A stretch of 64,000 nt of DNA from Lutibacter sp. Its GTDB lineage: Bacteria > Bacteroidota > Bacteroidia > Flavobacteriales > Flavobacteriaceae. The notes below the pieces were generated by a model. That model made no database searches. It was not told the DNA's origin and was given only the letters and a program-made list of their open reading frames with translations. This document shows positions 7,185-57,747 of the stretch, piece after piece. The stretch is from positions 1 to 64,000 of the forward strand of contig NZ_JAUYUD010000105.1 of assembly GCF_030692605.1 (NCBI RefSeq). Direction: 5' to 3'. The position numbers were made by a program, and so were the translations under genes. How positions within the stretch are numbered: position 1 is the first letter of the stretch; every line of letters begins with the position of its first letter.

Positions 7185-8795
7185 ATGAAAAAAATTAGTG
7201 TTCTATTAATCGGTTTGATCTTATTCTCTTGTGGTAAAAATTCATTGAATGAAACTGAGGCGCTTGAAAGCTTTTCTGAAAAAGACATTGAAAAACATGT
7301 TAAAATTTTAGCTTCAGACGATTTTATGGGTAGAAATCCTTTTACTGAGGGTGAAACAAAAACCATTAATTATTTAAAAGATGAATTTACAAAACTTGGT
7401 CTAAATAGTTTTTTTCAAGAAGTTCCTTTAATTCAGGTAACAGGTGAACCGAGCGATAAATTAATTATAAAAAAAGGAAACACGAATTTAACCTTAGCAT
7501 TAAATAATGACTTTGTTATTTTTTCAAGAGTTCAAAAAGAAATTGTTGGGATTGATGGTTCCGAATTAGTTTTTGCTGGTTATGGTATTGTGGCTCCTGA
7601 GTATAATTGGAATGACTATAAAGATATTGACGTAAAAGGTAAAACAGTTGTTGTTTTGGTAAATGATCCTGGAATTATAACTGGAAATAAAGACTTTTTT
7701 AAAGGAAATACCATGACTTATTATGGTAGATGGACGTACAAATACGAAGAAGCGGCAAGACAAGGAGCAAAAGATTGTATAATAATTCATGACGATAAAG
7801 GAGCTGGGTATAATTTTAGTGTCGTACGTAATGGGGCTACTTTCTCAAAATTGTATTTACAAAGTGAAAATGGATATAAAGAACGCTGTGAAATTGAAGG
7901 TTGGATTACTACTGAAGCAGCAAAAAAACTTGTTTCTTTTTGTGGATTTGATTCTAAAATAATTGAAAAAGCAGCAACTCTAGATCATAAATCGACCTCA
8001 TTGGGAGCAACTGCTACCACTTTTATTAAACAATCATTTGTTTCAAAAACTTCTAATAATGTATTTGGATATTTAGAAGGAACAGACAAAAAAGACGAAT
8101 TGATAGTTATTTCTGCACATTGGGATTGTTTTGGTATTGGTCCAAAAGTTAATGGAGATTCCATATACAATGGAGCTATTGACAATGGAACTTCACTTGC
8201 TTGGATGCTTGAAACTGCAGAAGCTTTTACAAAATTAAAGAAAAAACAATCGAGATCTATTTTGTTTTTTGCACCAACTGCAGAAGAAGCTGGTCTTTTA
8301 GGCTCTTCTTATTACACCGAAAATCCGATTTATCCATTGGCAAAAACTATTGCAGTAATTAACAACGATTTAATGTTTCCTTATGGCAAAACAAAGGATG
8401 TTATGGTAACTGGTTATGGCCAATCTGATTTGGACGATTTATTAGAAATAGAAGCTAAAAAACAAGATCGATATTTGTTGCCAGATCCAAATTCACATAC
8501 TGGAATGTTTTTTAGGTCTGACCATTTTAGTTTTGCAAAAGAAGGAGTTCCAGCTTTATTTGCAAGAAGTTATCATGACCATTATGAAAAAGGAAAAGAA
8601 TGGATGCGCGCTAAAGAAAAAGAATACCTTTCAGATAAATATCATAAAACTACTGATGAATTTGAAGAAGATTGGGATTTATCTGGGGTTGTTTTAGACA
8701 GCCAATTATTATTTAATTTAACCTATAACTTATCCAATTCTAATACCTATCCTAAATGGAAAGAAAGTTCAGAATTTAAGAATGTGAAAAGGTAA
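7185..8795 (+). CDS. M28 family metallopeptidase (lipoprotein)
   Basis: Lipobox LILFSCG; PA-like domain; ISAHWDCFG, APTAEEAGLLGS. Confidence 0.88.
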   Translation: MKKISVLLIGLILFSCGKNSLNETEALESFSEKDIEKHVKILASDDFMGRNPFTEGETKTINYLKDEFTKLGLNSFFQEVPLIQVTGEPSDKLIIKKGNTNLTLALNNDFVIFSRVQKEIVGIDGSELVFAGYGIVAPEYNWNDYKDIDVKGKTVVVLVNDPGIITGNKDFFKGNTMTYYGRWTYKYEEAARQGAKDCIIIHDDKGAGYNFSVVRNGATFSKLYLQSENGYKERCEIEGWITTEAAKKLVSFCGFDSKIIEKAATLDHKSTSLGATATTFIKQSFVSKTSNNVFGYLEGTDKKDELIVISAHWDCFGIGPKVNGDSIYNGAIDNGTSLAWMLETAEAFTKLKKKQSRSILFFAPTAEEAGLLGSSYYTENPIYPLAKTIAVINNDLMFPYGKTKDVMVTGYGQSDLDDLLEIEAKKQDRYLLPDPNSHTGMFFRSDHFSFAKEGVPALFARSYHDHYEKGKEWMRAKEKEYLSDKYHKTTDEFEEDWDLSGVVLDSQLLFNLTYNLSNSNTYPKWKESSEFKNVKR

Positions 8796-23048: not shown

Positions 23049-23723
23049 TTATTTCTTTCCTCCAACTACAACTACAAATTCACCTTTTGGATCTTTTTTT
23101 GTAAAGTACTCTATAAGTTCTGCAACAGTTCCTCTAACCGTTTCTTCATATAGTTTGGTGAGTTCTCGTGAAACTGAAATGGGTCTGTCTTCTCCAAAAT
23201 ATTCACCAAAATTGGTAAGTGTTTTTAGCAATTTATGTGGAGATTCATAAAAAATCATTGTTCTGGTTTCTTCTGCTAAATAAGTCAATCTAGTCTGCCT
23301 GCCTTTTTTTACTGGTAAAAATCCTTCAAAAACAAATTTATCATTTGGCAATCCGCTATTTACAAGTGCTGGAACAAATGCGGTTGCACCTGGTAAACAT
23401 TCAATTTCAACATCATTTTCTATACAAGCACGTGTTAATAAAAAGCCTGGATCAGAAATTGCAGGTGTCCCTGCATCAGAAATTAGAGCAATTGAATCTC
23501 CATTTTTAATTCGTTGAACAATATTAGCAACCGTTTTATGCTCATTATGCATATGATGGCTGTACATATGAGTTGAAATTTCAAAATGCTTTAATAATTT
23601 ACCACTTGTACGCGTGTCTTCAGCTAAAATTAAATCAACTTCTTTTAAAACTCGAACAGCTCTAAAAGTCATATCTTCTAAATTTCCGATGGGCGTTGGT
23701 ACTAAATATAGTTTTGAATCCAA
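23049..23723 (-). CDS. rsmI: 16S rRNA (cytidine(1402)-2'-O)-methyltransferase RsmI; probable TTG start (LDSKLYLVPTPIGNLED…)
   Basis: VPTPIGNLEDMT; ISDAGTPAISDPGF; TMIFYESPHKL; the track's longer N-terminus reads through low-complexity DNA upstream. Confidence 0.92.
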   Translation of the reverse strand: MDSKLYLVPTPIGNLEDMTFRAVRVLKEVDLILAEDTRTSGKLLKHFEISTHMYSHHMHNEHKTVANIVQRIKNGDSIALISDAGTPAISDPGFLLTRACIENDVEIECLPGATAFVPALVNSGLPNDKFVFEGFLPVKKGRQTRLTYLAEETRTMIFYESPHKLLKTLTNFGEYFGEDRPISVSRELTKLYEETVRGTVAELIEYFTKKDPKGEFVVVVGGKK

Positions 23724-23741
23724 AGTTTTAAGTTTTAAGTT

Positions 23742-23749
23742 CAAAGTTA
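23742..23749 (-). promoter_or_regulatory. TAnnTTTG -7 box (TAACTTTG) for rsmI
   Basis: Lies inside the track's ORF extension, 18 nt upstream of TTG 23723. Confidence 0.5.
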
Positions 23750-23854
23750 CAAAGATTTTGATAAGATTTAATGTTTTGATTTTTAACAATAAGCGAGTTT
23801 GTTTAAATGAAGCCATTTAACTTTTGACTTTAAACCTTTTTAACTTTATAACTC

Positions 23855-53838: not shown

Positions 53839-54810
53839 ATGTCGTTTATTGAACCCATTTTACAACCAAATAAAGATCGATTTGTTATTTTCCCAATACA
53901 ACATCAAGATATTTGGGAGTGGTACAAAAAACAAGAAGCTAGTATTTGGACAGCTGAAGAAATTGATTTACACCAAGATGTTAATGATTGGGAAAATAAA
54001 TTAAATGATGATGAGCGTTATTTTATCAAACACATTTTAGCTTTTTTTGCTGCTTCAGATGGTATTGTTAATGAAAATTTAGCTGAAAATTTTGTAAGTG
54101 AAGTGCAATATTCTGAAGCGAAATTCTTTTATGGATTTCAAATAATGATGGAAAATATTCATTCAGAAGTTTATTCATTATTAATTGATACATACGTTAA
54201 AAATGAACTTGAAAAAAATGAATTATTCAAAGCAATTGAAGTATTTCCTGCCATAAAATTAAAAGCCGATTGGGCTTTAAAATGGATTGACAGTCCAAGT
54301 TTTGCAGAGCGTTTAATCGCTTTCGCCGCTGTTGAAGGAATTTTTTTTTCAGGAAGTTTTTGCTCTATTTTTTGGTTGAAAAAACGTGGATTATTACCTG
54401 GTTTAACTTTTTCAAACGAGTTAATTTCTCGTGATGAAGGATTGCATTGTGATTTTGCAGTGCATTTACATAACAATCATATTGTAAATAAAGTTCCAAA
54501 AGAACGAATTACAGCCATTCTTGTTGATGCTTTAAACATTGAGCGTAAATTTATAACTGAATCATTACCCGTAAGTTTAATAGGCATGAATGCTAAATTA
54601 ATGACACAATATTTGGAATTTGTGACTGACAGATTATTAACTGAATTTGGTTGTGATAAAGTTTATAATTCATCAAATCCATTTGATTTTATGGAAATGA
54701 TTTCATTAGAAGGGAAAACAAATTTCTTTGAAAAACGGGTTTCAGAGTATCAAAAAGCAGGTGTAAAAAGCGGAGGTACAGGGAGCATTAGCTTTGACGC
54801 GGATTTTTAG
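53839..54810 (+). CDS. nrdB: Ribonucleoside-diphosphate reductase small chain (class Ia beta)
   Basis: [53 protein letters not shown]. Confidence 0.96.
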
Positions 54811-54819
54811 CAGAAAAAA

Positions 54820-55339
54820 GTTAAAAGTTATATGTTAATAGTTATATGTTGTTTATGTCTGAGTGTTATTGACCAAATTTGACTTAGTTTAAGGCTGATA
54901 ATTAATAAATGTGAAAAGAAATAATGAGTACTATTCATTCATTTGAGGAGCTAGAATGCTGGAAAGCGGCCAGAGAAATAAAATTATTTGTTTCAAAACA
55001 GGTTCTTAAAAAACTCCCAAAAGATGAGCAATATGATTTGATTAGTCAACTTCGACGTTCTTCACGTTCAATATCGGATAATATTGCTGAGGGTTTTGGA
55101 AGATATCATTTTCAGGAAAATATTCAATATTGCAGAGTGGGAAGAGGCTCTTTGCACGAATCTCTAAATCAAGTTATAACCGCTTTAGATGATAGTTATA
55201 TTGATGAATCTATTTTAACAGAATTTAGGGTTTTATTTTTTAAAACAAATTCGCTTTTAAACGGTTATATCAATTATCTGACGAAAATGAAATCAAATAA
55301 CAAATAACATTTAACGTATAACATATAACAACATTTAAC
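54820..55339. mobile_element. Putative IVS-like cassette: imperfect terminal inverted repeats enclosing a four-helix-bundle gene
   Basis: Left arm GTTAAAAGTTATATGTTAATAGTTATATGTTGTTTATG (from 54820); right-arm reverse complement GTTAAATGTTGTTATATGTTATACGTTAAATGTTATTTG (ends 55339). Confidence 0.55.
54924..55307 (+). CDS. Four helix bundle protein (S23/IVP family)
   Basis: FEELECWKAAREIKLFVSKQ…LPKDEQYDLISQLRRSSRSISDNIAEGFGRYHFQENIQYCRVGRGSLHESLNQV. Confidence 0.93.
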   Translation: MSTIHSFEELECWKAAREIKLFVSKQVLKKLPKDEQYDLISQLRRSSRSISDNIAEGFGRYHFQENIQYCRVGRGSLHESLNQVITALDDSYIDESILTEFRVLFFKTNSLLNGYINYLTKMKSNNK

Positions 55340-55365: not shown

Positions 55366-57747
55366 ATGTACGTACTAAAAAGAGATGGGAAAAAAGAGCC
55401 AGTAATGTTCGATAAAATTACAGCTCGTGTAAGAAAAATGTGTTATGGTTTAAATAAGCTTGTTGACCCCGTTAAAGTGGCAATGAGAGTTATTGAAGGA
55501 TTGTATGATGGAGTAACAACATCTGAACTTGACAATTTAGCAGCTGAAATTGCTGCAACAATGACCGTTCAACATCCAGATTATGCTAAACTTGCAGCCC
55601 GTATTGCCGTTTCAAATTTACATAAAAACACAAAGAAAACGTTCTCTGAAGTTATGGAGGATTTATACAAGTATGTAAATCCTCGTACAGGAAAAAAAGC
55701 TCCTTTGTTATCTGATGAAACGTATAAAATTATCATGGATAATGCTGAAAAATTAGACTCAACGATTATATACAACAGGGATTTTAGCTACGATTATTTC
55801 GGATTTAAAACATTAGAACGTTCCTATTTGTTGAAAATAAATGGAGAAATTGCTGAACGACCTCAGCACATGTTAATGCGTGTTGCCATTGGAATTCATC
55901 AAGAAGATATTGACGAAGCTATTGAAACATACGAGTTAATGTCGAAAAAATTCTTTACACACGCCACTCCAACCCTTTTTAATGCAGGTACGCCAAAACC
56001 ACAAATGTCTTCATGTTTTTTATTACAAATTCAAGATGATAGCATTGAAGGAATTTATGACACGTTGAAACAAACTGCACAAATTTCTCAATCTGCTGGC
56101 GGGATAGGGTTATCAATTCATAATGTTCGTGCGACAGGTTCTTATATTAGAGGAACAAATGGCACGTCAAATGGAATTGTTCCTATGCTAAAAGTATTTA
56201 ATGATACAGCTCGTTACGTAGATCAAGGGGGCGGTAAACGAAAAGGTTCTTTTGCCATTTATATAGAACCCTGGCATGCCGATGTTTTCGACTTTTTAGA
56301 TTTACGTAAAAATACAGGTGCAGAAGAAAAACGTGCCAGAGATTTATTTTATGCGATGTGGATTCCCGATTTATTTATGAAACGCGTGGAGGAAAACGGG
56401 GACTGGACGTTGATGTGCCCCAATGAATGTCCGCATTTGTTTGATACCTATGGTGATGAATTTGAAAAGCTTTATACGGGCTATGAAAAAGTTGGGAAAG
56501 GACGTAAAACAATAAAAGCACGTTTGCTTTGGGAAAAAATATTGGAAGCCCAAATTGAAACCGGAAATCCGTATATGTTGTATAAAGATGCTGCCAACCG
56601 AAAATCCAATCAAAAGAATTTAGGAACCATCCGCTCTTCTAATTTATGCACAGAAATCATGGAATATACAGCAAAAGATGAAGTTGCGGTATGTAACTTG
56701 GCGTCTATTGCGCTGCCTATGTTTATTGAAGAAGATGAAAATGGAACCAAATTTTTTAATCACCAAAAACTTCATAAAATCACCAAAAAAATTACACGTA
56801 ATTTAGATACAGTTATTGACCGTAATTATTACCCTGTAAAAGAAGCCGAAAACTCAAACTTTCGGCATAGACCTATAGGACTTGGAGTTCAGGGTTTAGC
56901 AGATGCATTTATACTATTGCGTTTGCCTTTTACAAGTGACGAAGCAAAAGTATTAAATCAAGAAATTTTTGAAACTATTTATTTTGCGGCAGTAACTTCA
57001 TCAATGGAAATTGCGAAGGCAAAAGAACCATATTCAACATTTAAGGGTTCCCCAATGTCGCAAGGTGAATTTCAATTTAATATGTGGGGTGTTTCTGAAG
57101 ACGATTTAAGTGGAAGATGGGATTGGAAATCATTACGAAAAAACGTAGTTAAAAACGGCATAAGAAATTCATTATTAGTGGCACCAATGCCAACAGCATC
57201 TACTTCTCAAATTTTAGGGAATAATGAAGCTTTTGAGCCTTATACATCTAATATATATACCCGTAGGGTACTGAGCGGAGAATTTATTATTGTTAACAAA
57301 CATTTATTGGAAGATTTAGTTGAAAGAGGTTTGTGGAATAATGAAATGAAAGAAGAGATTATGAGGGCTAACGGATCTGTTCAACATATTGATATCATTC
57401 CACAAGAATTGAAAGAATTGTATAAAACCGTTTGGGAAATGAGCATGAAAGATATTATTGACATGTCTCGTCAGAGAGGCTATTTTATAGACCAATCACA
57501 ATCGCTAAACTTATTTATGCAAGATGCAAACTATTCCAAATTAACTTCAATGCATTTTTACGCTTGGAAAAGTGGCTTAAAGACTGGTATGTATTATTTG
57601 CGTACCAAAAGTGCTGTAAACGCCATTCAATTTACGGTATCAAATGCTAAAAAAGAGGAAGAGAAACCTTTAACACCAGAAGAATTGAAAGAGATGATAA
57701 TTGCTTCACAAAACAATCCGGATGATTGTGAAATGTGTGGTTCTTAA
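55366..57747 (+). CDS. nrdA: Ribonucleoside-diphosphate reductase subunit alpha
   Basis: [25 protein letters not shown]-cone; [43 protein letters not shown]-terminal DDCEMCGS. Confidence 0.97.

Follow-up and report, generated by a model that had tools for sequence, protein, structure and literature searches.

The genes for the small and the large chain of ribonucleotide reductase, nrdB and nrdA, are separated in Lutibacter sp. by a short gene of the S23 (23S_rRNA_IVP) four-helix-bundle family lying between inverted repeats, and the locus raises the question of what this gene and its flanks are. The window (the whole stretch of DNA that was analysed, 64,000 nucleotides) contains the following features at this position.

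53839..54810, forward strand: nrdB, ribonucleotide reductase small chain, the upstream cistron (PF00268, 366 bits)
54820..54854, forward strand: 5' arm, five contiguous heptamers (from the sequence; inverted repeat I1, arm score 35)
54924..55307, forward strand: S23 / 23S_rRNA_IVP four-helix-bundle gene, 127 aa (PF05635, 90.7 bits; TIGR02436, 78.3 bits)
55295..55339, forward strand: 3' arm, with the theme of the 5' arm in reverse complement (from the sequence; inverted repeats I1 and I6)
55366..57747, forward strand: nrdA, ribonucleotide reductase large chain, the downstream cistron (PF02867, 722 bits; PF00317; ATP-cone)

We consider it probable that the segment 54820-55339 is a small mobile S23 cassette, an element of the kind known as intervening sequence (IVS) in rRNA genes that here occupies mRNA space between nrdB and nrdA, and that it works by the mechanism proposed below. 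An earlier, sequence-only reading had placed a 127-aa four-helix-bundle gene between the two cistrons, and the scores for PF05635 (against a cut-off of 33.8 bits) and TIGR02436 confirm this. Two relatives of the protein have solved structures, 2gsc and 2rld, each of which contains five chains. It is encoded by the sole ORF of at least 80 aa in the cassette, and no transposase, recombinase or reverse transcriptase (RT) is encoded there.

The 5' arm begins 9 nt after the nrdB stop codon and reads directly as GTTAAAA GTTATAT GTTAATA GTTATAT GTTGTTT (54820-54854). The 3' arm reads AAATAAC AAATAAC ATTTAAC GTATAAC ATATAAC (55295-55329), followed by AAC and by ATTTAAC (55333-55339); it contains the stop codon of the S23 gene (55305-55307), and the nrdA start lies 26 nt past it. 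The ends of the element at 54820 and 55339 had been read correctly, and the inverted-repeat flanks are borne out by a complementarity of 82% over 28 nt (54827-54854 with 55302-55329), with a second inverted pair at 54841-54853 and 55327-55339. The description of the flanks as GTTATATGTT units stands with respect to the inverted repeats, but each arm is more aptly seen as a row of five heptamers whose theme is private to the copy, the 7-bp period being absent from that reading. The arm score of 35 compares with a 95th percentile of 26 and a maximum of 37 in 200 shuffles. Folding of the region as RNA, a check that had been proposed, gives a predicted structure in which the two arms pair and the S23 gene is enclosed in the loop (z -2.25; one shuffle in 100 did equally well). 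Taken alone, the arm pairing and the fold of this copy are modestly significant; at the level of the family the signal is overwhelming.

The same protein family is found in the rRNA IVS. In Coxiella the 23S rRNA IVS is 428 nt long and its S23 ORF follows up to three GACAGAT heptamers; their copy number differs among strains, RNase III cuts at the first repeat, and the ORF is considered to be unexpressed and decaying (PMC4990558). The suggestion of the sequence-only reading, that a dispersed IVS relative lies between nrdB and nrdA, is well supported: the protein family is shared with the 23S rRNA IVS, the ORF likewise lies between inverted arms, and heptamers occur in Coxiella too (PMC4990558). 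The rRNA IVS of Coxiella, Leptospira, Brucella and Haemophilus are likewise elements of about 430 nt in which inverted arms enclose a single PF05635 ORF, and in Coxiella the tandem heptamers are, according to the literature, located ahead of the S23 start codon (PMC4990558). In contrast, rRNA IVS lie within an rRNA helix, whereas the present element is located between two protein-coding cistrons; as it lies outside any rRNA gene, it is filed here as IVS-like rather than as an rRNA IVS. Excision by RNase III has been demonstrated for the rRNA IVS alone, and while the Coxiella ORF is thought to be decaying, the nrdB-nrdA S23 gene belongs to a family under purifying selection. None of 17 S23 loci, mostly from other phyla, was located in an rRNA gene, and the link to the rRNA IVS therefore rests on the literature. 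IVS encoding S23 were already known from rRNA genes; what seems to be the same kind of element is found here in ordinary operons.

For the family as a whole, we used a genus set of 38 genomes with about 150 PF05635 places, of which 103 full copies were analysed. The pairing of a copy's own arms, compared with swapped arms, exceeded the 95th percentile in 58 of the 103 copies and the 99th in 28. The 95th percentile was likewise exceeded in 21 of 30 cases from other families of the host's class, 35 of 57 from named Bacteroidota and 24 of 30 from other phyla, the latter set including Verrucomicrobia, Acidobacteria, Omnitrophota, candidate phyla, Gemmatimonadetes and Clostridia. Autocorrelation of the genus arms peaks at lag 7 (z 10.4 and 11.0) and is also high at lags 14 and 21, which is not the case for the controls. 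Strong inverted arms flank 110 of the 211 PF05635 genes considered, which come from many phyla, about half of the genes falling below the threshold; among ordinary genes the figure is 9 of 347 (2.6%). The 110 strong cases share one common motif, roughly AGTTNNN, with a period of 7 (log-likelihood gain 332 and 358; with period 8 the gain is 37 and 34, with period 6 it is 0); the composition of their 5' arms is 23% G and 7% C, and the median array length is 5.0 units. In many phyla, the arm theme differs between copies and agrees between the two arms of one copy.

The heptamers could in principle be products of generic slippage in intergenic regions, unlinked to S23, with S23 genes merely lying among them. 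Arrays without a gene are indeed frequent in the host genome (see below) and a unit length of 7 is common among bacterial simple repeats (Mrazek, as cited in PMC4679880), but the comparison of 2.6% of ordinary genes with 110 of 211 S23 genes refutes the strong form of this explanation, and arms that agree within a copy and not between copies, with a theme that travels with the protein, leave it with hardly any credibility. The arms are thus tied to the S23 family, and the case of random arms unlinked to four-helix-bundle genes, raised beforehand as a possible outcome, did not occur. G-U-compatible changes were not in excess among the arm mismatches (81 versus 100, p 0.18) and RNA pairing is therefore not favoured as the selected feature; wobble asymmetry as proof of RNA-level pairing was rejected on this negative test. 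Concerted evolution of the two arms in orthologous elements of the genus was not significant by site (13 versus 9 sites, p 0.45).

A search for further copies in the host genome, also suggested at the outset, finds comparable arms beside other PF05635 genes. Nine such genes are present, most of them with their own inverted arms, and the themes differ per copy (AGGCAAT, GATTGAC, TAGATTT, AAGCTAT, CAGTTTA, AAATAAC and others). In 421 kb of the host genome there are 17 tandem-like segments at lag 7, compared to 0 to 8 for other lags from 4 to 14, and about 12 of the 17 are gene-less heptamer arrays, some of which are hairpins. One gene-less array (AAGTTTT AAGTTTT AAGTTCA) is located at 23722-23847 of the window, near the start of a minus-strand ORF, with its inverted partner TAACTTTTGACTTTAAACCTTTTTAACTTT about 70 bp off. 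Another gene-less structure, a short hairpin with heptamer arms, occupies the nuoJ-nuoK gap of the host (L165, contig C97, about 8300-8392); the same gap holds full S23 cassettes in relatives (loci L106, L108, L112, L113 and L116), and the host hairpin looks like the scar of a cassette.

When the nrdB-nrdA spacing is compared among relatives, the gap is empty, or contains a gene-less GATTTAC or AATTACG hairpin, or contains a cassette. Empty sites thus exist, and the relatives do not all carry the gene at the same place without the repeats, which the sequence-only reading had named as evidence to the contrary. The cassettes of the host and of genome G006 are of one type, and that of G019 encodes an unrelated S23 protein (17% identity) between GATTTAC arms. 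G006 is located inside a well supported clade (100/99), the other members of which have a hairpin or nothing in the gap, and the host genome lies outside this clade. Despite a frameshift, the G006 S23 gene shares 90.6% identity with the host copy, against 84.0% for nrdB, an indication that the element was transferred. At no fewer than five sites, unrelated S23 lineages occupy the same position in different species. Conversely, similar S23 proteins at different sites carry similar arms (Mantel, 0 of 500 permutations), and high-copy genomes contain paralogues of about 80-84% identity at different sites, some sharing visible themes. In the gene-less nrdB-nrdA hairpins of relatives (loci L021, L025 and L027) a further repeat-like stretch, CCCTTTCCTT.GGAAAGGG..TGGGGATAGG, is present between the arms.

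These patterns bear on the reading of S23 as an ordinary regulatory gene that is resident in the operon, with the arms acting as RNA control elements and the variation among relatives caused by gene loss. Its operon location and purifying selection would be expected for such a gene, as would the many sites common to several species. Unrelated S23 lineages at one site and related copies at different sites are, however, difficult to reconcile with a resident gene, as are an empty site with a target duplication (see below) and a frameshifted copy in G006 that is closer to the host than nrdB is, in an otherwise hairpin clade; we disfavour this reading and hold it to be quite improbable.

The 103 copies of the genus represent 32 sites, all of which are intercistronic. 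The S23 gene is co-oriented with the downstream gene at 32 of 32 sites and with both neighbours at 30 of 32, compared to 73% and 55%, respectively, for ordinary host genes, and the copies with a broken reading frame are in the sense direction as well (11 of 11). In strong-arm copies, the start of the 5' arm typically coincides with the stop codon of the upstream gene (median -6 nt), and about 11 nt separate the end of the 3' arm from the next start. The S23 protein is under purifying selection, with a median dN/dS of 0.13 for the gene. Antisense copies do occur, namely two among the first six copies that were inspected on plasmids and some in other families of the class; sense orientation of S23 cassettes is not universal, and this is counted against the cassette model.

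The sense bias in the genus and the intercistronic sites within core operons would also suit a retroelement-like process, in which an RT supplied in trans copies the element RNA, S23 acts in an Avd-like manner and reinsertion occurs mostly in sense into transcribed operons. Avd of the diversity-generating retroelements, which works with a reverse transcriptase, is a four-helix-bundle protein homologous to PF05635 (PMC10053308). In contrast to the S23 cassette, which has no RT, Avd sits beside the RT with template and variable repeats; the sole RVT_1 match of the host is located on another contig (C17). RVT_1 is absent from six genomes of the genus with at least five S23 matches (G003, G019, G015, G014, G051 and G016), the number of S23 genes is not significantly correlated with that of RTs in the genus (p 0.11), and antisense copies are found in cyanobacteria, all of which makes this explanation improbable.

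Plasmid S23 genes of the cyanobacteria Nostoc, Anabaena and Pseudanabaena have TAGGGAG, GGTGACA and TAGCTTT arms. At one site, three plasmids have the cassette and six others, whose flanks are about 97-98% identical, lack it; the sequence of the empty site is AAAAAGTAATTAACAAATAAATATG, and in the filled site GTAAT is found on both sides of about 420 bp. This 5-bp target duplication is clean at this one cyanobacterial site, and elsewhere duplications are short or ambiguous. At the same junction, Brasilonema has a gene-less hairpin and another Nostoc a remnant of S23. Two adjacent gaps in a plasmid operon whose genes are only a few bases apart have gained cassettes; the flanking genes are intact, and the duplication is short or ambiguous. 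Related cyanobacterial copies are found at three sites, and for three pairs (L309/L321, L307/L323 and L308/L332) the divergence in the empty-site comparison is too high for exact ends. In Nostoc edaphicum, plasmid pNe_5 (L307) carries an antisense S23 cassette with TAGGGAG arms between nrdB and nrdA; this gene junction was apparently used independently in a second phylum.

The clean GTAAT duplication is what would be expected if the element were DNA transposon-like, with S23 binding the arms as double-stranded terminal repeats, a host or resident transposase acting in trans, a 5-bp duplication on insertion and the RNA folding incidental. Arm pairing without wobble excess and the antisense copies fit such an element too, and the number of Y1 transposases tracks that of S23 in the genus (Spearman 0.49, p 0.002). 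The cassette itself is nevertheless devoid of a transposase, four genomes lack a Y1 transposase despite 5-13 S23 matches (DDE transposases being outside this survey), the arms vary among copies, unlike terminal repeats for one transposase, and the sense bias in the genus is strong even in broken copies; we therefore regard a DNA transposon-like element as rather unlikely. Classical insertion sequences of the DDE or HUH type differ from the S23 cassette in having their own transposase. REP/RAYT and MITE-like elements resemble it as small intergenic inverted repeats, and in the 421 kb sampled gene-less S23 derivatives are at least as common as gene-bearing ones; the differences are that S23 arms are private heptamer arrays and that the cassette lacks an HUH or DDE transposase gene.

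Neither the ORFs of the cassette nor the RVT_1 and Y1 transposase counts in the genus identified a moving enzyme. A resident RT or Y1 transposase as the required mover was rejected, given S23-rich genomes that lack one or the other and G051, with five S23 matches, that lacks both. Carriage by phages was likewise rejected, as an S23 query against 50,697 phage records gave no match.

The data establish the anatomy of the element, its recurrence in many genomes and phyla, its gain, loss and movement, its insertion in gaps between cistrons and the purifying selection on its protein; for the mobile cassette that we favour, we propose the following mechanism, which is inferred. The cassette comprises one PF05635 gene, of a family known for pentamer rings, between inverted arms of about five heptamers each, and would be expressed with the host operon; its sense orientation at nrdB-nrdA may be due to this expression. 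The arms would pair in the transcript and, by analogy with the rRNA versions, be cut by RNase III, and intercistronic insertion would therefore be nearly harmless. Whether by such cutting the expression of nrdB might be uncoupled from that of nrdA, as the sequence-only reading had proposed, is a more speculative point. Avd is a pentamer. An S23-family protein of Xanthomonas forms a homopentamer ring (PMC4990558). A putative S23 pentamer could bind the heptamer arrays, with about five 7-nt units for five subunits, although this correspondence is a numerical match only. Bound S23 might mark or protect the nucleic acid of the element, which an enzyme provided in trans would then mobilise, in analogy with Avd, and the gene-less heptamer hairpins would be non-autonomous or decayed derivatives of the cassette.

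Heptamer repeats have been described independently of S23. The STRR sequences of cyanobacteria consist of 7-bp units and form intergenic hairpins, for example between hupS and hupL (PMC2670836), and the TAACTGA repeats also have 7-bp units (MacGregor, 2015; PMC4679880). TAACTGA reads TCAGTTA on the opposite strand, which fits the S23-arm motif AGTTNNN. Both repeat types share with S23 arms the 7-bp intergenic units, and a Nostoc plasmid S23 gene has TAGGGAG arms, but the descriptions of STRR and TAACTGA concern repeats with no S23 gene. Neither 23S, intervening sequences nor four-helix genes are mentioned in the paper on TAACTGA (PMC4679880), and in the open-access texts on TAACTGA and STRR a link to S23 is absent (PMC4679880; PMC2670836), so that an earlier description elsewhere is possible.

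PF05635 is present in 95 of 119 sampled genomes of the host's class and is among its most widespread families of unknown function. PF05635 genes as cargo of heptamer-armed cassettes join three puzzles that were previously handled separately: the rRNA IVS, the heptamer repeats known from cyanobacteria and from other bacteria, and the orphan genes for four-helix bundles that lie in operons and cas loci. Tentatively, and with less confidence than we have in the reading of the nrdB-nrdA locus, we suggest a bacteria-wide mobile element with one gene and no recombinase, whose pentameric ring might read about five private heptamers, which would enter stop-start gaps of operons with a target duplication and which could have seeded rRNA IVS and STRR-type hairpins. 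If true, the rRNA IVS and the unexplained STRR-type hairpins would share one origin in S23 elements.

In Flavobacterium columnare, a four-helix-bundle gene between gmk and nadD, listed within a phage region (PMC5524665 Table 5), looks like another intercistronic S23 cassette. S23 cassettes are also found in plasmid cas operons of cyanobacteria (L306, L311 and L325), twice as cas6-S23-cas4 and once as cas10-S23-cmr3, and these could be the reason why 23S_rRNA_IVP has been described in the literature as CRISPR-associated.
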